The position numbers were made by a program, and so were the translations under genes. From the NCBI GenBank assembly GCA_003818285.1, contig RPRB01000022.1:1-42694 (forward strand): DNA of 42,694 bases, written 5' to 3'. Below, in pieces: positions 11,699 to 42,694 of this stretch. The first letter of the stretch is position 1; each line of letters opens with the position of its first letter. The notes under the pieces were generated by a model that was given only the letters and a program-made list of their open reading frames with translations, was not told the DNA's origin and searched no databases. This stretch comes from Myxococcaceae bacterium (lineage in GTDB: Bacteria; Myxococcota; Myxococcia; Myxococcales; Myxococcaceae).

Positions 11699-12025
11699 AT
11701 GCGCCTGAACGTCGGCAAGAGGTTCGGCGTGCACGTGCGGGCGCTGCGCCACGCCCGGCAGTTCACCCAGGAGGGGCTCGCGGAGCGGAGCGAGCTGTCG
11801 GTCGACGCCGTGCGGCGGATCGAGCGCGGCGCGTTCTCTCCGTCCCTGGAGACGGTGAACAAGCTCGCCACCGGCCTCGACGTGTCACTGCGCACGCTGT
11901 TCAACGACTTCGACCGCGACCGGCGAGACCAGGTCGCCGAGCTCTGCGACTACCTCGGCAAGCGGAACCGGAACGAGCTGCGGATGGTGTGGCGAGTCAT
12001 CCGCGCGATGTTCGAGGGGGTCTGA
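11699..12025 (+). CDS. XRE-family helix-turn-helix regulator
   Basis: A 108-residue DNA-binding protein. The HTH_3 domain spans about residues 5-65, with FTQEGLAERSELSVDAVRRIERGAFSPSLETVNKLATGLDV as helix 2 to helix 5. A basic C-terminal tail (DYLGKRNRNELRMVWRVIRAMF) follows. Two in-frame ATGs exist at 11687 and 11699. The GGAG at 11690-11693 sits five bases before the second and would be coding in the first, so 11699 is preferred. The last 29 bp overlap the end of the convergent sensor-kinase gene. Upstream lies 131 bp with a GCCGGCG/CGCCGGC inverted repeat at 11574-11596. Targets are unknown. Confidence 0.85.
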   Translation: MRLNVGKRFGVHVRALRHARQFTQEGLAERSELSVDAVRRIERGAFSPSLETVNKLATGLDVSLRTLFNDFDRDRRDQVAELCDYLGKRNRNELRMVWRVIRAMFEGV

Positions 12026-13316
12026 CCCCGTCGCGCTCGGCCGGACGGCGCACGGTGAAGCCCACGCGCGCACCGCCCTCGGTCCGGTTCTCGGCGAACG
12101 CGCTCCCGCCGTGCGCCTCGGCGATGCGCCGGACCAGCGCCAGCCCGAGACCGAGCCCGTCGCTCGTCTCCCCTCGCTGGAAGGGGTGAAAGACGCGCTC
12201 CCCGTCCCCTTCGAGCCCGGGCCCCGCGTCCTCGACGGAGAAGCGGACCACGCCGTTCGGCACGTCGACCCGGAGCCGGGTGACGCCGCCGCCGTGCACC
12301 CGAGCGTTCTCCAGGAGGTTGGACAGCGCCCGCTGGAGCAGGGTCGGGTCCCCCTCGAGCGAGACCGGGGCGTCGTCCACCTCCAGCAGCGCCGTGGGAA
12401 GGGCCGCGCGCTCCAGCGCCCGGGCTCCGAGGTCACCGGCATCGAGCGGCACCCGGGCCATGGCCGTGAAGTCCAGCCGCGCCGAGGCGAGCAGCTCGCC
12501 CACCAGCGCGTCCATCTCCAGCACCTCGTGCTCGAGCTGGTCGAGCACCGAGGTGTCCCCACCGCGACCGAGCTCCAGGAGGAGCCGGATGCGGGCCAGC
12601 GGCGTGCGCAGCTCGTGGCTCACCGCGGCCAGCAGCTCGCGCTGGTCCTTCAGCTGTCGCTCGATGCGCTCGGCCATCCCGTTCATCACCTCGGCCAGCG
12701 AGCGCACCTCGCCCCGGGCGAAGCGCACGTCGAACCGGCTCTGGAGCCGTCCCTCGCCGAGATCGCGGGCCACGCGGGTCAGCTCCTCCAGCGGCCAGGC
12801 CAGCTTCCAGGCGATGCGCCCGGAGATGGCCCAGAGCGACACCACCGCCACCGCCAGCGCGAGGAGGACCGTCCACCCGCCGCCGCCGCGCGGCCAGGGA
12901 TGCACCCGCACCGTGCCCACCTGCACGCCGTCGCGGAACACGGGCGCGCTCGCGGCCCAGTGAATCGTCGGCGGTCCGAAGCGGGCAAACTCCTTGCCCA
13001 GGGCAACGTCCAGCCGCACCGACCAGCCCAGCTGCCCGGCGATCTCGGAGGCCCAGGCGTCACGGTGGCGGGGATCGTCCCACACCCTCGAAGCCTGCAC
13101 GCCGATGAGCGCCTGCACGTTGTTCCACTGCGCGCGCGCCGACGGCCCGCGGAACCGGTCCACCACGGTGGTGACGGCCAAGACGACGAAGGCGGTGACC
13201 AGGATGGACACCCCGAACCAGACGAACAGCCGCCGCTGCATCCGGGCGCGGTTCCGCCAGCGCACCAGGTCCGGCCAGCGGCTCCGGTGGTGCCAGGGAT
13301 GGCAGGGCGGGACCAC
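11997..13316 (-). CDS. sensor histidine kinase of the Cpx-like operon
   Basis: A 439-residue membrane kinase. TM1 is about residues 30-52, a small periplasmic sensor about 53-146, TM2 about 147-167, followed by HAMP, HisKA with H234 in AVSHELRTPLARI, and HATPase with LSNLLENARVHGG, VEDAGPGLEG and GLGLGLALV. The short periplasmic loop and HAMP match CpxA/EnvZ-type envelope sensors. The start is GTG 13316, three bases after the regulator stop. An internal ATG at the MQRRLFVWFG segment just before TM1 is an alternative. It is the last gene of a four-gene operon headed by a Spy/CpxP-like protein, which suggests it senses envelope stress or metal. The 3' end overlaps the convergent XRE gene by 29 bp. 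Confidence 0.92.
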   Translation of the reverse strand: MVPPCHPWHHRSRWPDLVRWRNRARMQRRLFVWFGVSILVTAFVVLAVTTVVDRFRGPSARAQWNNVQALIGVQASRVWDDPRHRDAWASEIAGQLGWSVRLDVALGKEFARFGPPTIHWAASAPVFRDGVQVGTVRVHPWPRGGGGWTVLLALAVAVVSLWAISGRIAWKLAWPLEELTRVARDLGEGRLQSRFDVRFARGEVRSLAEVMNGMAERIERQLKDQRELLAAVSHELRTPLARIRLLLELGRGGDTSVLDQLEHEVLEMDALVGELLASARLDFTAMARVPLDAGDLGARALERAALPTALLEVDDAPVSLEGDPTLLQRALSNLLENARVHGGGVTRLRVDVPNGVVRFSVEDAGPGLEGDGERVFHPFQRGETSDGLGLGLALVRRIAEAHGGSAFAENRTEGGARVGFTVRRPAERDGVRPPRTSRG

Positions 13317-13319
13317 CGG

Positions 13320-14003
13320 CTACTGCTCCCGGCTGAGCACGTAGCCCACGCCACGGACCGTCTTGATCCGCCGGGGGGAGCGCGGATCGTCGCCGAGCTT
13401 CGCCCGGAGATGGGAGATGTGGACGTCCACGGTTCGCTCGCCCACCACCACGTCGCTCCGCCCGGCCTCGGCGAGGAGGGCATCCCGCGGGATGACCCGG
13501 CCCGCGCGGCGCATCAGCGCGACGAGGATGTCGAACTCCAGTCCGGTGAGGTCCACCGGCTTGCCCTCCACCGTCACCAGCCGGGCCCCGACGTCCACCT
13601 GCACGTCGCACACCGCCAGCTTCTCGCTCACCGCCTCGGGGGAGCTCCGCCGGAGCACCGCGCGCAGGCGGGCCAGCAGCTCGCGGGGGCTGAAGGGCTT
13701 GGGCACGTAGTCGTCCGCACCGATCTCCAGCCCCACCACCCGGTCGGTCTCGTCGCCCTTGGCGGTGAGCATCAGGATCGGCACGCGGCTCCGGGTCCGG
13801 ATGCGCCGGAGCACCTCCAGCCCGTCCATGCCCGGGAGCATGATGTCCAGGAGCACGGCGTCGAAGGCGGAGGCGTCCAGCGCCTGGATGCCGCTCTGGC
13901 CGTCGTAGGCCGGCGTCACCTGGACGCCGTTCTGGCCGAGCCAGCTCACCAGCAGCTCTTGCAACCGGCGGTCGTCGTCGATGCACAGCACCCGGACGGA
14001 CAT
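13320..14003 (-). CDS. OmpR-family response regulator (CpxR-like)
   Basis: A 227-residue regulator. The receiver has D9-D10-D11, phospho-acceptor D53 in AVLLDIMLPGMDG, T80 and K102 in DDYVPKPF. The C-terminal winged helix contains TVDVHISHLRAKLGDD and IKTVRGVGYVL. The SDVVVGERTVDVHISHLR stretch is very similar to CpxR, and the partner gene order supports that relationship. It starts at ATG 14003, 15 bp after the 67-residue membrane protein, and ends three bases before the GTG of the kinase. It is likely to control its own operon through the region upstream of 14721. Confidence 0.92.
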   Translation of the reverse strand: MSVRVLCIDDDRRLQELLVSWLGQNGVQVTPAYDGQSGIQALDASAFDAVLLDIMLPGMDGLEVLRRIRTRSRVPILMLTAKGDETDRVVGLEIGADDYVPKPFSPRELLARLRAVLRRSSPEAVSEKLAVCDVQVDVGARLVTVEGKPVDLTGLEFDILVALMRRAGRVIPRDALLAEAGRSDVVVGERTVDVHISHLRAKLGDDPRSPRRIKTVRGVGYVLSREQ

Positions 14004-35407: not shown

Positions 35408-37021
35408 ATGCGCCAGCTGAAGACGCTGAAGCGGCTCTACGACGAGGAACGGCACGTCGTCATCACCGAGAAGGGAAGCCCGCCCCGGGTGCTCTTCTTC
35501 GGCGAGGACTTCCTGCTCGAGGACCTGCCGCTGGACACGCGGGTCATCTTCCCCCGACCGCCGCTGCAGGGCGTGCCGAACGTCAAGGCGGCGATCCGCT
35601 GGGCGATCAACCACCCCGAGGGAATGGAGCCTCTGCACGCACTGCTCCGGCCGGGAATGAAGGTGACGATCGCCATCGATGACATCTCGCTGCCGCTGCC
35701 GCCGATGGCGCTGCCGGACGTGCGCCAGACCATTCTGGAGATCGTGCTCGAGCTGCTGGCGGACTCGGGCGTGGACGACGTGCACCTGATCATCGCCAAC
35801 GCGCTCCACCGGCGGATGACCGAGGCGGAGATGAAGCGGATGGTGGGCTCGAAGATCTTCGACGCCTACTACCCGGAGCGCTACTACAACCACGACGCAG
35901 AGGACCCGGAAGGGATGGTGGAGCTGGAACGCACCAGCCTCGGTGAGGTGGTGGCCCTCAACCGCCGAGCCGTGGAGAGCGACCTCCTCATCTACGTGAA
36001 CATCAATCTCGTGCCGATGGACGGCGGGCACAAGTCGGTGGGCACGGGGCTGGCGAACTACGAATCGCTGCGGGCGCACCACAACCCGAAGACCATCCGC
36101 GACTCCGAGAGCTACATGGAGCCCTCGCGAAGTGCGCTGCACAAGAGCACCGAGCGCATCGGACGGGTGATCGACAAGAACCTGAAGGTGTTCCACATCG
36201 AGACCGCGCTGAACAACCGGATGTTCGACGGTCCGACGGGATTCCTGGGGAAGCGGGAGGAGGACTACACCGAGTTCGACCGGCTGAAGTTCCAGGGACT
36301 GAAGTACACGCTGTCGAAGCTGCCGCGGGCGGCGAAGCGGAAGCTGTTCATGCAGATCCCCGCGCCCTACCAGGTGACCGGGGTGAACGCGGGGGCGACG
36401 GAGCCCTGCCACGAGAAGACGCTCGAGCTGTGCTGGAAGCAGTACTCGGTGCCGGTGGAGGGCCAGAGCGACATCGTCATCTTCCCGGTGCCGTACATCT
36501 CCCCGTACAACGTGAACTCGATCCTGAACCCGCTCCTGGTTCAGGTGATGGGGCTCGGGTACCTGTACAACCTGAACCGGGGCGTGCCGCTGGTGAAGAG
36601 GGGCGGGGTGATCATCCTCTGCCACCCGGCGTACGACGAGTTCGATCCGGAGCACCACCCGAGCTACATCGAGTTCTTCAACCGTCTACTCCCGGAGACG
36701 CGGGACGCGATGAAGCTCGAGCACATGTACGAGCGGGAGTTCGCGGAGAACCCGAGCTACGTGCACCTGTACCGGAAGGGGCACGCCTACCACGGGGCTC
36801 ACCCGTTCTACATGTGGTACTGGGGCGAGAACGGCCGCCAGCACGTGGGGAAAGTCATCTGCGCGGGCGCGGAGAACAACCACGTGCCGGAGCTGCTGGG
36901 CTGGGAGCGGGCGGACACTCTCGGAGAGGCGATCGACCTGGCCCGCGGCTTCATGGGCCGCAGCGCGAGCATCACCTGTGTGAAGACCGCGCCGATCGTG
37001 CAGTGCGACGTGCGGATCTGA
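35408..37021 (+). CDS. LarA-family (DUF2088) lactate-racemase homolog
   Basis: A 537-residue protein, longer than typical LarA (about 425). It has the LarA N-domain with [12 protein letters not shown]134 in [10 protein letters not shown]162 in YYNHDAED, and K209 in the [10 protein letters not shown] loop, which corresponds to the lysine binding the nickel-pincer cofactor in LarA. H225 lies 16 residues after it, at the spacing of the nickel ligand. The LarA catalytic histidine expected about ten residues before K209 appears replaced ([11 protein letters not shown]). The C-terminal domain contains INPLLVQ-like [19 protein letters not shown]. Whether it is a racemase or epimerase for another 2-hydroxyacid is unknown. 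No larB, larC or larE is in the window. Confidence 0.85.
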
Positions 37022-39016: not shown

Positions 39017-40093
39017 CTACGACGCTCCGAATCCCCGGTCCCTGGCAAAGACGATCGCCTGAGCCCGGGTCCAGACGCCCAGCTTGTCGAACAGGTTGGA
39101 GAGGTGGTTCCGGACCGTCTTCTCGCTGAGGGAGAGTCGTTCTGCGATGTCGGCGTTGCCCAGGCCCTCGGTGAGGAGGGTCAGCACCTCGCGCTCGCGC
39201 CCCGTCAGCTTGCGGAAGATCGGGTCCTCCCCCACGGTCCGCCCCAGGCCGGTGAACTCCAGGGCGGCGCTGCGGAAACGTTCCCAGGCCGGTTCGGCCT
39301 CCAGGAGAATGTGGTTGCTCGAGTCCAGCTCGACGAACTCGGCCCCCGGAATCGCCGAGGCGATGAGGCGACCCTCGGCCAGGGGAACCACCTGATCGTT
39401 CCGGGCGTGAACCACCAGCGTCGGGGCCCGGACCCGCTCCAGCACGTCGACGACGTCGACCTTGCCCCGCGCCTCCATCAGCTCCGCGGCGATCTTCGGG
39501 GAGGTGGTCTTCCGGCACAGCTCGTTGAACCAGTTCATCTGCTCCTCCGTCGCTCCGGGGACGAAGCGGGAGGTGAAGATCTGCCGGAAGGCCGGGTTCT
39601 CCTCTCCCCAGCCGAAGCGGACCAGATCGGTGATCGCCTGATAGGTCCGCAGGGCATCCGGGTCCCCTCGCCTGGACCAGCCGCGGGCATAGCCCCCGTA
39701 GATCAGCAGGTGCGAGACCCGGTCCGGGTGACGGGCGGCGAATGACACCGCGGCGACCGTTCCATGGGAGATCCCCAGCAGGGCGAACCGCTCTCGCGGG
39801 GCGACGGCCGCCACCAACGCCTCCAGGTCTACGAGCCACCGATCCGGAGACAGGTCCCCCACGCTGCGGTCGCTCATCCCGCACCCGCGCTCGTCGTACC
39901 GAACGAGCCGGAAGTGGCTGGAGAAGAAGCGAAGCCAGTGGCCCCACAGCGGGCTCTCCCATTCGTACTCGAGATGGGTGAGCCAGTTGGCGGCCTTCAC
40001 CAGCAAGGGGCCGGCGGAAGCGTCCGCCCAGGCCAGCTGCACTCCGTCAGTGGTGCGGAGGTAGTGAATGCGCTGTCGCGGCCGCTTTTCCAA
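39017..40093 (-). CDS. alpha/beta-hydrolase fused to LuxR-type DNA-binding domain
   Basis: A 358-residue fusion. Residues 10-280 form an alpha/beta-hydrolase with nucleophile S109 in ALLGISHGTVA, acid D233 in HARNDQVVP and H261 in DSSNHILLE, so the triad looks complete. Residues 295-350 are a LuxR/FixJ HTH (KLTGREREVLTLLTEGLGNADIAERLSLSEKTVRNHLSNLFDKL). The start codon is TTG at 40093, with an AGGGGG tract a few bases upstream; no in-frame ATG lies near the N-terminus. It is divergent from the diiron gene across a 133-bp region with dyads, suggesting that it controls that gene, perhaps sensing an ester or lactone ligand. The last point is inference. Confidence 0.9.
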   Translation of the reverse strand: MEKRPRQRIHYLRTTDGVQLAWADASAGPLLVKAANWLTHLEYEWESPLWGHWLRFFSSHFRLVRYDERGCGMSDRSVGDLSPDRWLVDLEALVAAVAPRERFALLGISHGTVAAVSFAARHPDRVSHLLIYGGYARGWSRRGDPDALRTYQAITDLVRFGWGEENPAFRQIFTSRFVPGATEEQMNWFNELCRKTTSPKIAAELMEARGKVDVVDVLERVRAPTLVVHARNDQVVPLAEGRLIASAIPGAEFVELDSSNHILLEAEPAWERFRSAALEFTGLGRTVGEDPIFRKLTGREREVLTLLTEGLGNADIAERLSLSEKTVRNHLSNLFDKLGVWTRAQAIVFARDRGFGAS

Positions 40094-40100
40094 GAAACCC

Positions 40101-40170
40101 CCTGTCCCTCGCGAGAGTCGGGACGATTGTCCCGCGATCCGCGGGCGAAATCAGCTCCACCCGGGACAGG
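40101..40170. promoter_or_regulatory. nested GGGAC/GTCCC dyads between divergent genes
   Basis: CCTGTCCC (40101-40108) is the reverse complement of GGGACAGG (40163-40170). Between them, CGGGAC (40119-40124) and GTCCCG (40129-40134) form a tight dyad around GATT. The left copy lies eight bases upstream of the TTG start of the hydrolase-LuxR gene. The arrangement fits a regulator-binding region shared by two divergent genes; which protein binds is not known. Confidence 0.5.
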
Positions 40171-40226
40171 ACTCCCATGGTGAAGGCCAGCCCTCCCACG
40201 CATCGTTCTCTCCAGGAGGACACACC

Positions 40227-41141
40227 ATGCTGAGCCACACGTACGACTACCCATCCATTCTGGAGACGTCACAGCGGATCAACTGGAAGCTCGAGGACGT
40301 CATCGGCGGACGGACCTTCGACTTTTCCCGCCCGTTCCTGCCCGATTCGCTCGCCGGGGTCGCCGGGATCCGCTGCCTCGACGACAAGGAGAAGCTCAAG
40401 CTCAATCACATCCGCGGCTTCACCTACCTGTCCCTGTTCGGCCTCGTGGAGGAATACATCGTCCCCTCGGTGCTCGACCACGTTCGCGGCGGGGTACACG
40501 AGGGGCAGGAGCGAAGGGCTCTTCTTCGCTTCGCCGAGGAGGAAGCGAAGCACATCGAGCTCTTCCGGTGGTTCGTCCGGGAGTTCAAGTCCGGTTTCGA
40601 CACTGAATGCGGTGTGATCGGTCCAGCCAGTGAGATCGCTTCGGCCATCCTGGCGCACTGCCCGCTGGGCGTGTTCCTGACCACCCTGCACATCGAGTGG
40701 TTCACCCAGAAGCACTACGTGGAATCGGTGAAGGACAACGCCGCCGAGCACCTCGACGCGCTCTTCTGCAGCCTCCTCAAGCATCACTGGATGGAGGAGA
40801 GTCAGCACGCCAAGCTCGACACTCTGATCGTCGACGAGATCGCCAGCACCCTCGGGCGGAAGGAGATCGAGAAGGGGATCGACGACTACATGGACATCGG
40901 CAAGCTCCTCGACGGAGGACTGCAAGCCCAGGTCCGCATGGATCTGGAAAGCCTGCAGAAGGCGATCGGGCGCGTGCTCGGGCCCGCGGAACGGGCGGAG
41001 ATCGAGGCAGCACAGCTGAAGAGCTACCGCTGGACGTTCCTGCTCAGCGGGATGACTCACCCCAACTTCGACCGCAGCCTCCGCGAGCTGAGCGTCGACG
41101 GACACCGGCGGGTCGGAGAGCTGGCCAGGGCCATCGCCTGA
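40227..41141 (+). CDS. ferritin-like diiron protein
   Basis: A 304-residue helical protein with the full four-helix diiron pattern: E75/E76, E106-x-x-H109 in EEEAKH, E157 in HIEW and E191-x-x-H194 in MEESQH. This is the layout of AurF-type diiron oxygenases and related ferritin-like enzymes, but sequence alone does not tell oxygenase, N-oxygenase or desaturase. No signal peptide. ATG 40227 follows AGGAGG eight bases upstream, the best Shine-Dalgarno in the region. The frame open to 40068 is only extension. It is divergent from the hydrolase-LuxR gene and 148 bp upstream of the secreted amidohydrolase. Confidence 0.85.
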   Translation: MLSHTYDYPSILETSQRINWKLEDVIGGRTFDFSRPFLPDSLAGVAGIRCLDDKEKLKLNHIRGFTYLSLFGLVEEYIVPSVLDHVRGGVHEGQERRALLRFAEEEAKHIELFRWFVREFKSGFDTECGVIGPASEIASAILAHCPLGVFLTTLHIEWFTQKHYVESVKDNAAEHLDALFCSLLKHHWMEESQHAKLDTLIVDEIASTLGRKEIEKGIDDYMDIGKLLDGGLQAQVRMDLESLQKAIGRVLGPAERAEIEAAQLKSYRWTFLLSGMTHPNFDRSLRELSVDGHRRVGELARAIA

Positions 41142-42339: not shown

Positions 42340-42694
42340 TCACGCGTGCCGACGGATGAAGGCGCCGGCATTGGCGAGAGCTTCACGCCCGGGTGCCAGC
42401 CGCGCATTCCACACCGGCCACGCGTGGATCATGTGCGGCCAGATCTCCAGCGTGACCGGCACGTCGGCGGCACCGGCCGCAGACGCGAATCGGGTGGCGT
42501 CGGCGAGCAGTGTCTCGGCCGAACCGACCTGGATGAGCAACGGCGGCAGCCCGGAGAGGTTCGCGTAGAGCGGCGAGACCCGCGGGCCTCTCGGGTCCAT
42601 CCCCTTCGGCAGGTAAGCGGAGGCGAGCTCTCGAAGGTAATCCTCGTGAACGAGCGGGTCCGTCGCAGCCTTGGTCGCCAGCGTCGATCCCGAG
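42340..42694 (-). CDS. HSL-type alpha/beta-hydrolase, C-terminal part
   Basis: The gene runs off the right edge; 117 residues plus the stop are visible. DPLVHEDYLRELASAYLP and SPLYANLSGLPPLLIQVGSAETLLADATRFA match the hormone-sensitive-lipase/acetyl-hydrolase family, with the catalytic Asp region near ETLLAD. The catalytic His is in WPHMIHAWPVW. The nucleophile Ser and oxyanion HGG lie outside the window. It is convergent with the amidohydrolase, 48 bp apart. Substrates are probably short-chain esters, by family. Confidence 0.85.
   Translation of the reverse strand, partial: SGSTLATKAATDPLVHEDYLRELASAYLPKGMDPRGPRVSPLYANLSGLPPLLIQVGSAETLLADATRFASAAGAADVPVTLEIWPHMIHAWPVWNARLAPGREALANAGAFIRRHA

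Follow-up and report, generated by a model that had tools for sequence, protein, structure and literature searches.

We describe a divergent gene pair in which an alpha/beta-hydrolase fused to a LuxR-type DNA-binding domain faces the gene for an AurF/CmlI-like diiron protein. We consider it highly likely that the pair is a one-component module. In this reading, the hydrolase would act as the sensor, the LuxR domain would bind two sites, A and B, and the fusion would control the diiron gene and probably itself. Such control had been raised as a possibility in a first-pass annotation. It is now supported by comparative evidence: the pairing recurs with exchanged DNA-binding domains, and the gap between the genes contains a candidate operator. 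Features are listed in Table 1. Throughout, "the window" denotes the whole stretch of DNA analysed (42,694 nucleotides).

Table 1. Features of the divergent gene pair, numbered by window position.
Feature	Position	Strand	Remarks
Alpha/beta-hydrolase-LuxR fusion regulator	39017..40093	-	358 aa, TTG start
LuxR/GerE helix-turn-helix	39044..39211	-	residues 295-350; recognition segment SEKTVRNH
Alpha/beta-hydrolase (sensor) domain	39269..40075	-	residues ~7-275; domain search, alignment, fold match
Triad codon H261	39311-39313	-
Triad codon D233	39395-39397	-
Triad codon S109	39767-39769	-
Divergent intergenic region with proposed operator	40094..40226	.	133 bp
Extra half-site GTCCC	40104..40108	.	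forms GTCCC-N11-GGGAC with site A
Proposed operator site A, GGGACGATTGTCCC	40120..40133	.	GGGAC-N4-GTCCC
Proposed operator site B, GGGACAGGACTCCCATG	40163..40179	+	43 bp after site A
Shine-Dalgarno AGGAGG of diiron gene	40215..40220	+	read directly
AurF/CmlI-like diiron protein	40227..41141	+	304 aa, ATG start
Diiron-protein ligands E75, E106, H109, E157, H187, E191, H194			alignment

Pfam searches matched the first part of the fusion to Abhydrolase_1/Hydrolase_4 (E 1e-13 to 1e-14). The C-terminal part matched the GerE helix-turn-helix (PF00196; residues 295-350, E 2e-19, 69.4 bits against a cut-off of 23.5). In an alignment of homologues, S109 is retained in 32 of 35 proteins, D233 in 34 of 35 and H261 in all 35. 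The fusion therefore has both the fold and the Ser-Asp-His triad that define the alpha/beta-hydrolase superfamily. Hence, the domain matches and the alignment bore out the initial reading of an intact hydrolase joined to a LuxR helix-turn-helix. The 133-bp gap between the divergent genes was likewise correct. A model of the protein has a pLDDT of 87.5 and is least confident, among inner stretches, around residues 281-290. Structure comparison of this model placed the hydrolase domain closest to esterases, lactonases and perhydrolases. Pfam gave no match in the fusion to the autoinducer-binding domain PF03472 or to a receiver domain, and neither Pfam nor NCBIfam found an adenylate cyclase domain in its C-terminus. 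Hydrolase-LuxR proteins are labelled "alpha/beta fold hydrolase" by NCBI, an annotation that apparently overlooks the helix-turn-helix.

The fusion and diiron frames have coding-like GC3 values (0.89 and 0.84, respectively) and many homologues. Hence, neither is a chance open reading frame, and the Pfam matches also speak against a reading artefact. A longer diiron frame, starting at 40068, is a mechanical extension of the open reading frame. A role in anti-phage defence was rejected because PADLOC returned only helix-turn-helix-level matches, and nothing for the diiron protein.

The partner protein had been read as ferritin-like, with ligand motifs E, ExxH, E and ExxH. All of these motifs are present but the ferritin label did not stand, since H187 is an additional ligand. 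Hence, the set is that of AurF and CmlI, which we take to be E, ExxH, E, HxxxExxH. The ligands (E75, E106xxH109, E157 and H187xxxE191xxH194) are invariant in 10 homologues, and all seven are retained in the Burkholderiales partner proteins. The best fold matches of the protein model (pLDDT 89.8) are CmlI (Z 20.7) and AurF (Z 20.4). The next family, R2-like oxidases, follows about 4 lower (Z 16.6). Each of the 10 relatives has a PF11583 match at E<=0.1, the best being 1e-12. The window protein scores 19.3 bits, below the gathering cut-off of 29.6, and we therefore describe it as AurF-like without assigning it to the AurF family. No credible relative emerged from a sequence search of solved structures, and no natural-product cluster was seen beside the gene.

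Among the best 80 diiron loci, 24 have an OsmC gene near the diiron gene, usually directly downstream. This suggests a peroxide- or thiol-related role for the diiron protein. Examples of an OsmC-family gene directly 3' of the diiron gene are found at L145 (6943-7503), L192 (6952-7524) and similar loci, and the two genes are neighbours in many Alphaproteobacteria, Acidobacteria and others. Further diiron loci carry different dedicated regulators upstream (AraC with a cupin, BTAD-AAA or BTAD-TPR). Hence, the diiron gene is regularly found with a switch of its own.

The first-pass annotation had made its proposal dependent on conservation of the pairing in related genomes. Within the phylum, the pairing is not conserved: of 195 sampled genomes, the diiron gene is found in 47 and a close hydrolase in 6, and the two occur together in none except the source genome. 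Beyond the phylum, distant lineages overturn this objection and rule out a pairing restricted to one genome. In a member of the same genus (G001, genome 82% complete), the hydrolase (79%) ends right after the hydrolase domain. In that 82% complete genome, the hydrolase lacks the LuxR domain, and neither a diiron orthologue nor the A-B site was found. The hydrolase gene sits there behind what we take, from the sequences alone, to be a succinate dehydrogenase gene set.

Relatives of both genes were observed elsewhere in the source genome. Contig C228 (5975-6223; L040) carries a truncated diiron gene, a remnant of a second copy: only the final ~249 bp are present (84% nucleotide identity), fused to unrelated sequence. 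Contig C120 (L042, 1380-2450) encodes a 356-aa relative of the fusion that aligns over nearly its full length. Contig C66 (L041, 4255-6024) encodes a hydrolase relative with an N-terminal Trans_reg_C domain and adjoins an Abhydrolase_3 gene. A partial gene of that same family lies at the window edge (42340-42694, minus strand). The window also contains a gene for a lactate-racemase-type (Lar_N) protein upstream (35408-37021, plus strand). At 11997-14003 on the minus strand, a response-regulator-like frame is followed by one resembling its sensor kinase, as judged by reading the sequence only.

In Alpha- and Betaproteobacteria, the same hydrolase adjoins a diiron gene of this family at about 27 further loci. 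In the genome_contigs collection, the hydrolase is found within 6 kb of the diiron gene (<=6 kb) at 12 of the best 80 diiron loci, mostly in divergent orientation. Our Sphingomonadaceae-type sample comprised 298 genomes, 14 with the diiron gene and 284 without. The hydrolase occurs in 12 of the 14 but only 15 of the 284 (Fisher p about 2e-12, which is optimistic because the sampled genomes are related). The two genes are adjacent and divergent in 11 of the 14. In seven paired Sphingomonadales genomes, the paired hydrolase is the sole such hydrolase at E<=1e-30. A full-length hydrolase-LuxR gene adjoins the diiron gene on 6 of 10 diiron-bearing plasmids, and these six genes are the six best of 97 plasmid matches. 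The pairing is also found in Rhodospirillaceae, other Alphaproteobacteria, unclassified Proteobacteria and Burkholderiales plasmids.

The hydrolase is joined to different DNA-binding domains beside the diiron gene. A C-terminal LuxR domain is found in the window, at L075 and on six Cupriavidus and Caballeronia plasmids. An N-terminal Trans_reg_C (OmpR-like) domain occurs at L083, L116, L082, L074, G228 and G447. Most Sphingomonadales have an N-terminal SARP-like domain; this assignment draws on homology and sequence pattern, since the Pfam signal by itself is weak in these proteins. Paired loci of the Trans_reg_C type are mixed with those of the SARP-like type in the hydrolase tree. Hence, the output domain has been switched while the neighbour stayed unchanged. 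These loci are a clear example, from nature, of regulators evolving in a modular way: the DNA-binding domain is swapped while sensor and target are kept. In G447, a tandem second hydrolase regulator beside the diiron gene (L162, 231-1052) has Ser to Ala and Asp to Asn changes in its triad. This copy is likely to be a catalytically dead sensor.

We turn now to the proposed operator. Site B of the window reads GGGAC-N6-CCCATG, a single mismatch from GGGAC-N6-CTCATG. The GTCCC-N11-GGGAC spacing upstream is identical in three Caballeronia loci. Sites A and B recur next to hydrolase-LuxR genes of Caballeronia, Cupriavidus, Rhizobium, Bosea and Paracoccus, with different downstream genes; in Caballeronia and Cupriavidus the loci are paired ones, while in Rhizobium and Paracoccus the sites precede a methyltransferase gene. 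The distance from A to B falls into two classes (42-43 or 53-55 bp), one helical turn apart. Downstream of site B, at a distance that hardly varies, lies a conserved promoter-like stretch.

Hydrolase-LuxR genes adjoin genes other than the diiron gene, encoding a methyltransferase (Rhizobium, Paracoccus, Bosea) or an NnrU-like protein (G008). Hence, the diiron gene is not the only target of the family. On Rhizobium, Paracoccus and Bosea plasmids (L193, L194, L197, L200 and L201), a class I SAM methyltransferase gene comes after the hydrolase-LuxR gene, with the proposed operator between them. The L193 methyltransferase has a winged helix-turn-helix and is Rv2258c-like.

Of 23 genes in the hydrolase-LuxR family, 11 have an exact copy of site B alongside, whereas 1.36 Mb of other loci contain none. 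The A and B prediction was fixed before five further family genes were fetched. In three of these held-out loci (Bosea and two from Rhizobium), both sites were present at 42-43 bp. The Bradyrhizobium and Mesorhizobium loci had no A or B site; the Mesorhizobium gene lacks a detectable LuxR domain and the Bradyrhizobium gene is among the most divergent. A scan of 57 Mb gave 7 matches to the compound A-B pattern, of which six fall at hydrolase-LuxR genes. In the 5.77-Mb source genome it matched exactly once, at the window locus. Some of these loci had served to shape the pattern. The independent evidence therefore comprises the held-out loci, the match at G203:C39 (one of the six, not used in shaping the pattern) and the near-absence of other matches in those genomes. 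Specificity is a property of the compound site only. Site A alone was rejected as a regulon predictor, since its genome-wide count is near chance (16 vs 10 for the control). Site B alone was rejected as a specific marker, as large genomes contain other exact matches.

No A or B site was found at L075, which is paired and of the LuxR type. The compound site is also absent from paired loci with SARP-like or Trans_reg_C domains. Family members with KTVRN in the recognition helix have the site in 14 of 16 cases, compared with 1 of 5 for KTVKN (p about 0.01), a correlation that is only suggestive. Comparative evidence shows that the putative operator tracks the hydrolase-LuxR gene across phyla, regardless of the target gene. 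Very probably, then, the bipartite site between the genes is where the fusion regulator binds.

These comparisons strongly imply that the fusion would bind at, and control, the diiron gene; we infer that binding to the operator would be direct. Briefly, a ligand would most likely enter the hydrolase pocket and alter the dimer or the linker (around residues 281-290). The helix-turn-helix would then occupy sites A and B, so that the diiron promoter is activated and the fusion's own promoter modulated. We favour activation over repression because site B is just upstream of the promoter-like element, the spacing of A and B changes by one helical turn and the helix-turn-helix is of the LuxR type. 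The hydrolase domain would thus serve as a ligand-binding, possibly ligand-cleaving, sensor. From its fold and triad, the ligand may be a small hydrophobic ester or lactone. Given the recurring methyltransferase neighbours, a methylated or esterified compound is a reasonable first guess.

A broader interpretation can be drawn by analogy with plants, where D14 and KAI2 couple signal perception to hydrolysis. The hydrolases would constitute a widespread, hormone-receptor-like family of bacteria with exchangeable DNA-binding domains. An ester or lactone signal, perhaps shared and diffusible, would be perceived by hydrolysis-coupled switching and activate an enzyme, oxidative or methylating, by which the signal is itself made or destroyed. 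We regard this extension as tentative and rather improbable.

A different account, which we consider unlikely, gives the fusion a chiefly hydrolytic role in the pathway of the diiron protein, for example in cleaving the product of that protein. Adjacency would then reflect the shared pathway, and the helix-turn-helix would be autoregulatory only. Triad retention in most homologues fits this account, as does the resemblance to esterases, lactonases and perhydrolases. However, at co-directional loci (Caballeronia, Rhizobium, Bosea and Paracoccus), the A-B site lies between regulator and target, in front of the target. Furthermore, fusions of the hydrolase exist with three different DNA-binding domains, and in a few paired homologues the nucleophile is Cys or Ala. 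Still less probable is that another conserved regulator binds the site, with the hydrolase-LuxR protein as a co-regulated target. The window site is near the start of the fusion gene, as the operator of another factor would be. However, hydrolase-LuxR is the only gene common to the compound-site loci, and paired loci with other DNA-binding domains lack the site. That the genes are functionally unrelated chance neighbours, and the palindrome a hairpin or terminator, is barely credible. In its favour, other sampled genomes of the phylum lack the pair and GGGAC-N4-GTCCC could form a 5-bp hairpin. Against it, the two genes are found together repeatedly in distant lineages, and the genome has a single copy of the compound site. 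Moreover, no T-run follows the palindrome, which in the window is placed between two divergent starts and not at a gene end.

The preferred reading, a one-component module, links a regulator family with its putative DNA site and target gene. This makes the system directly testable. Through the conserved operator and diiron partner, one could approach both the ligand of a transcription factor built on a hydrolase and the substrate of an AurF-like family found in many phyla. In the open-access literature, we found no published description of hydrolase-LuxR or hydrolase-SARP regulators with AurF-like proteins, in agreement with the earlier impression that the pairing is not a described system. 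One-component regulators with enzyme-derived sensors are known as a general kind. The combination of sensor, partner and operator appears to be new.

Several known systems share parts of this arrangement. LipJ (Rv1900c) also has an N-terminal alpha/beta-hydrolase and a signalling output domain, and its family (NF058673) is the best NCBIfam match of the fusion (94.6 bits, far below the cut-off of 800). However, the output of LipJ is an adenylate cyclase, whereas that of the fusion is a DNA-binding domain. RsbQ, KAI2 and D14 (DAD2) use a triad-bearing hydrolase fold as receptor, and KAI2 (4hta) and DAD2 (6uh8) are among the fold matches of the hydrolase domain. The resemblance is one of fold only; those receptors signal via partner proteins, whereas the fusion carries its own DNA-binding domain. 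LuxR solos and NarL/GerE one-component regulators likewise combine a C-terminal GerE helix-turn-helix with a ligand-binding N-terminal domain. The fusion differs in that its sensor is an alpha/beta-hydrolase, with neither PF03472 nor a receiver. Finally, the diiron protein shares its fold and seven-ligand pattern with the arylamine N-oxygenases AurF and CmlI. It differs from them in its low identity (10-14%), its PF11583 score and its genomic setting, in which no natural-product cluster was seen.
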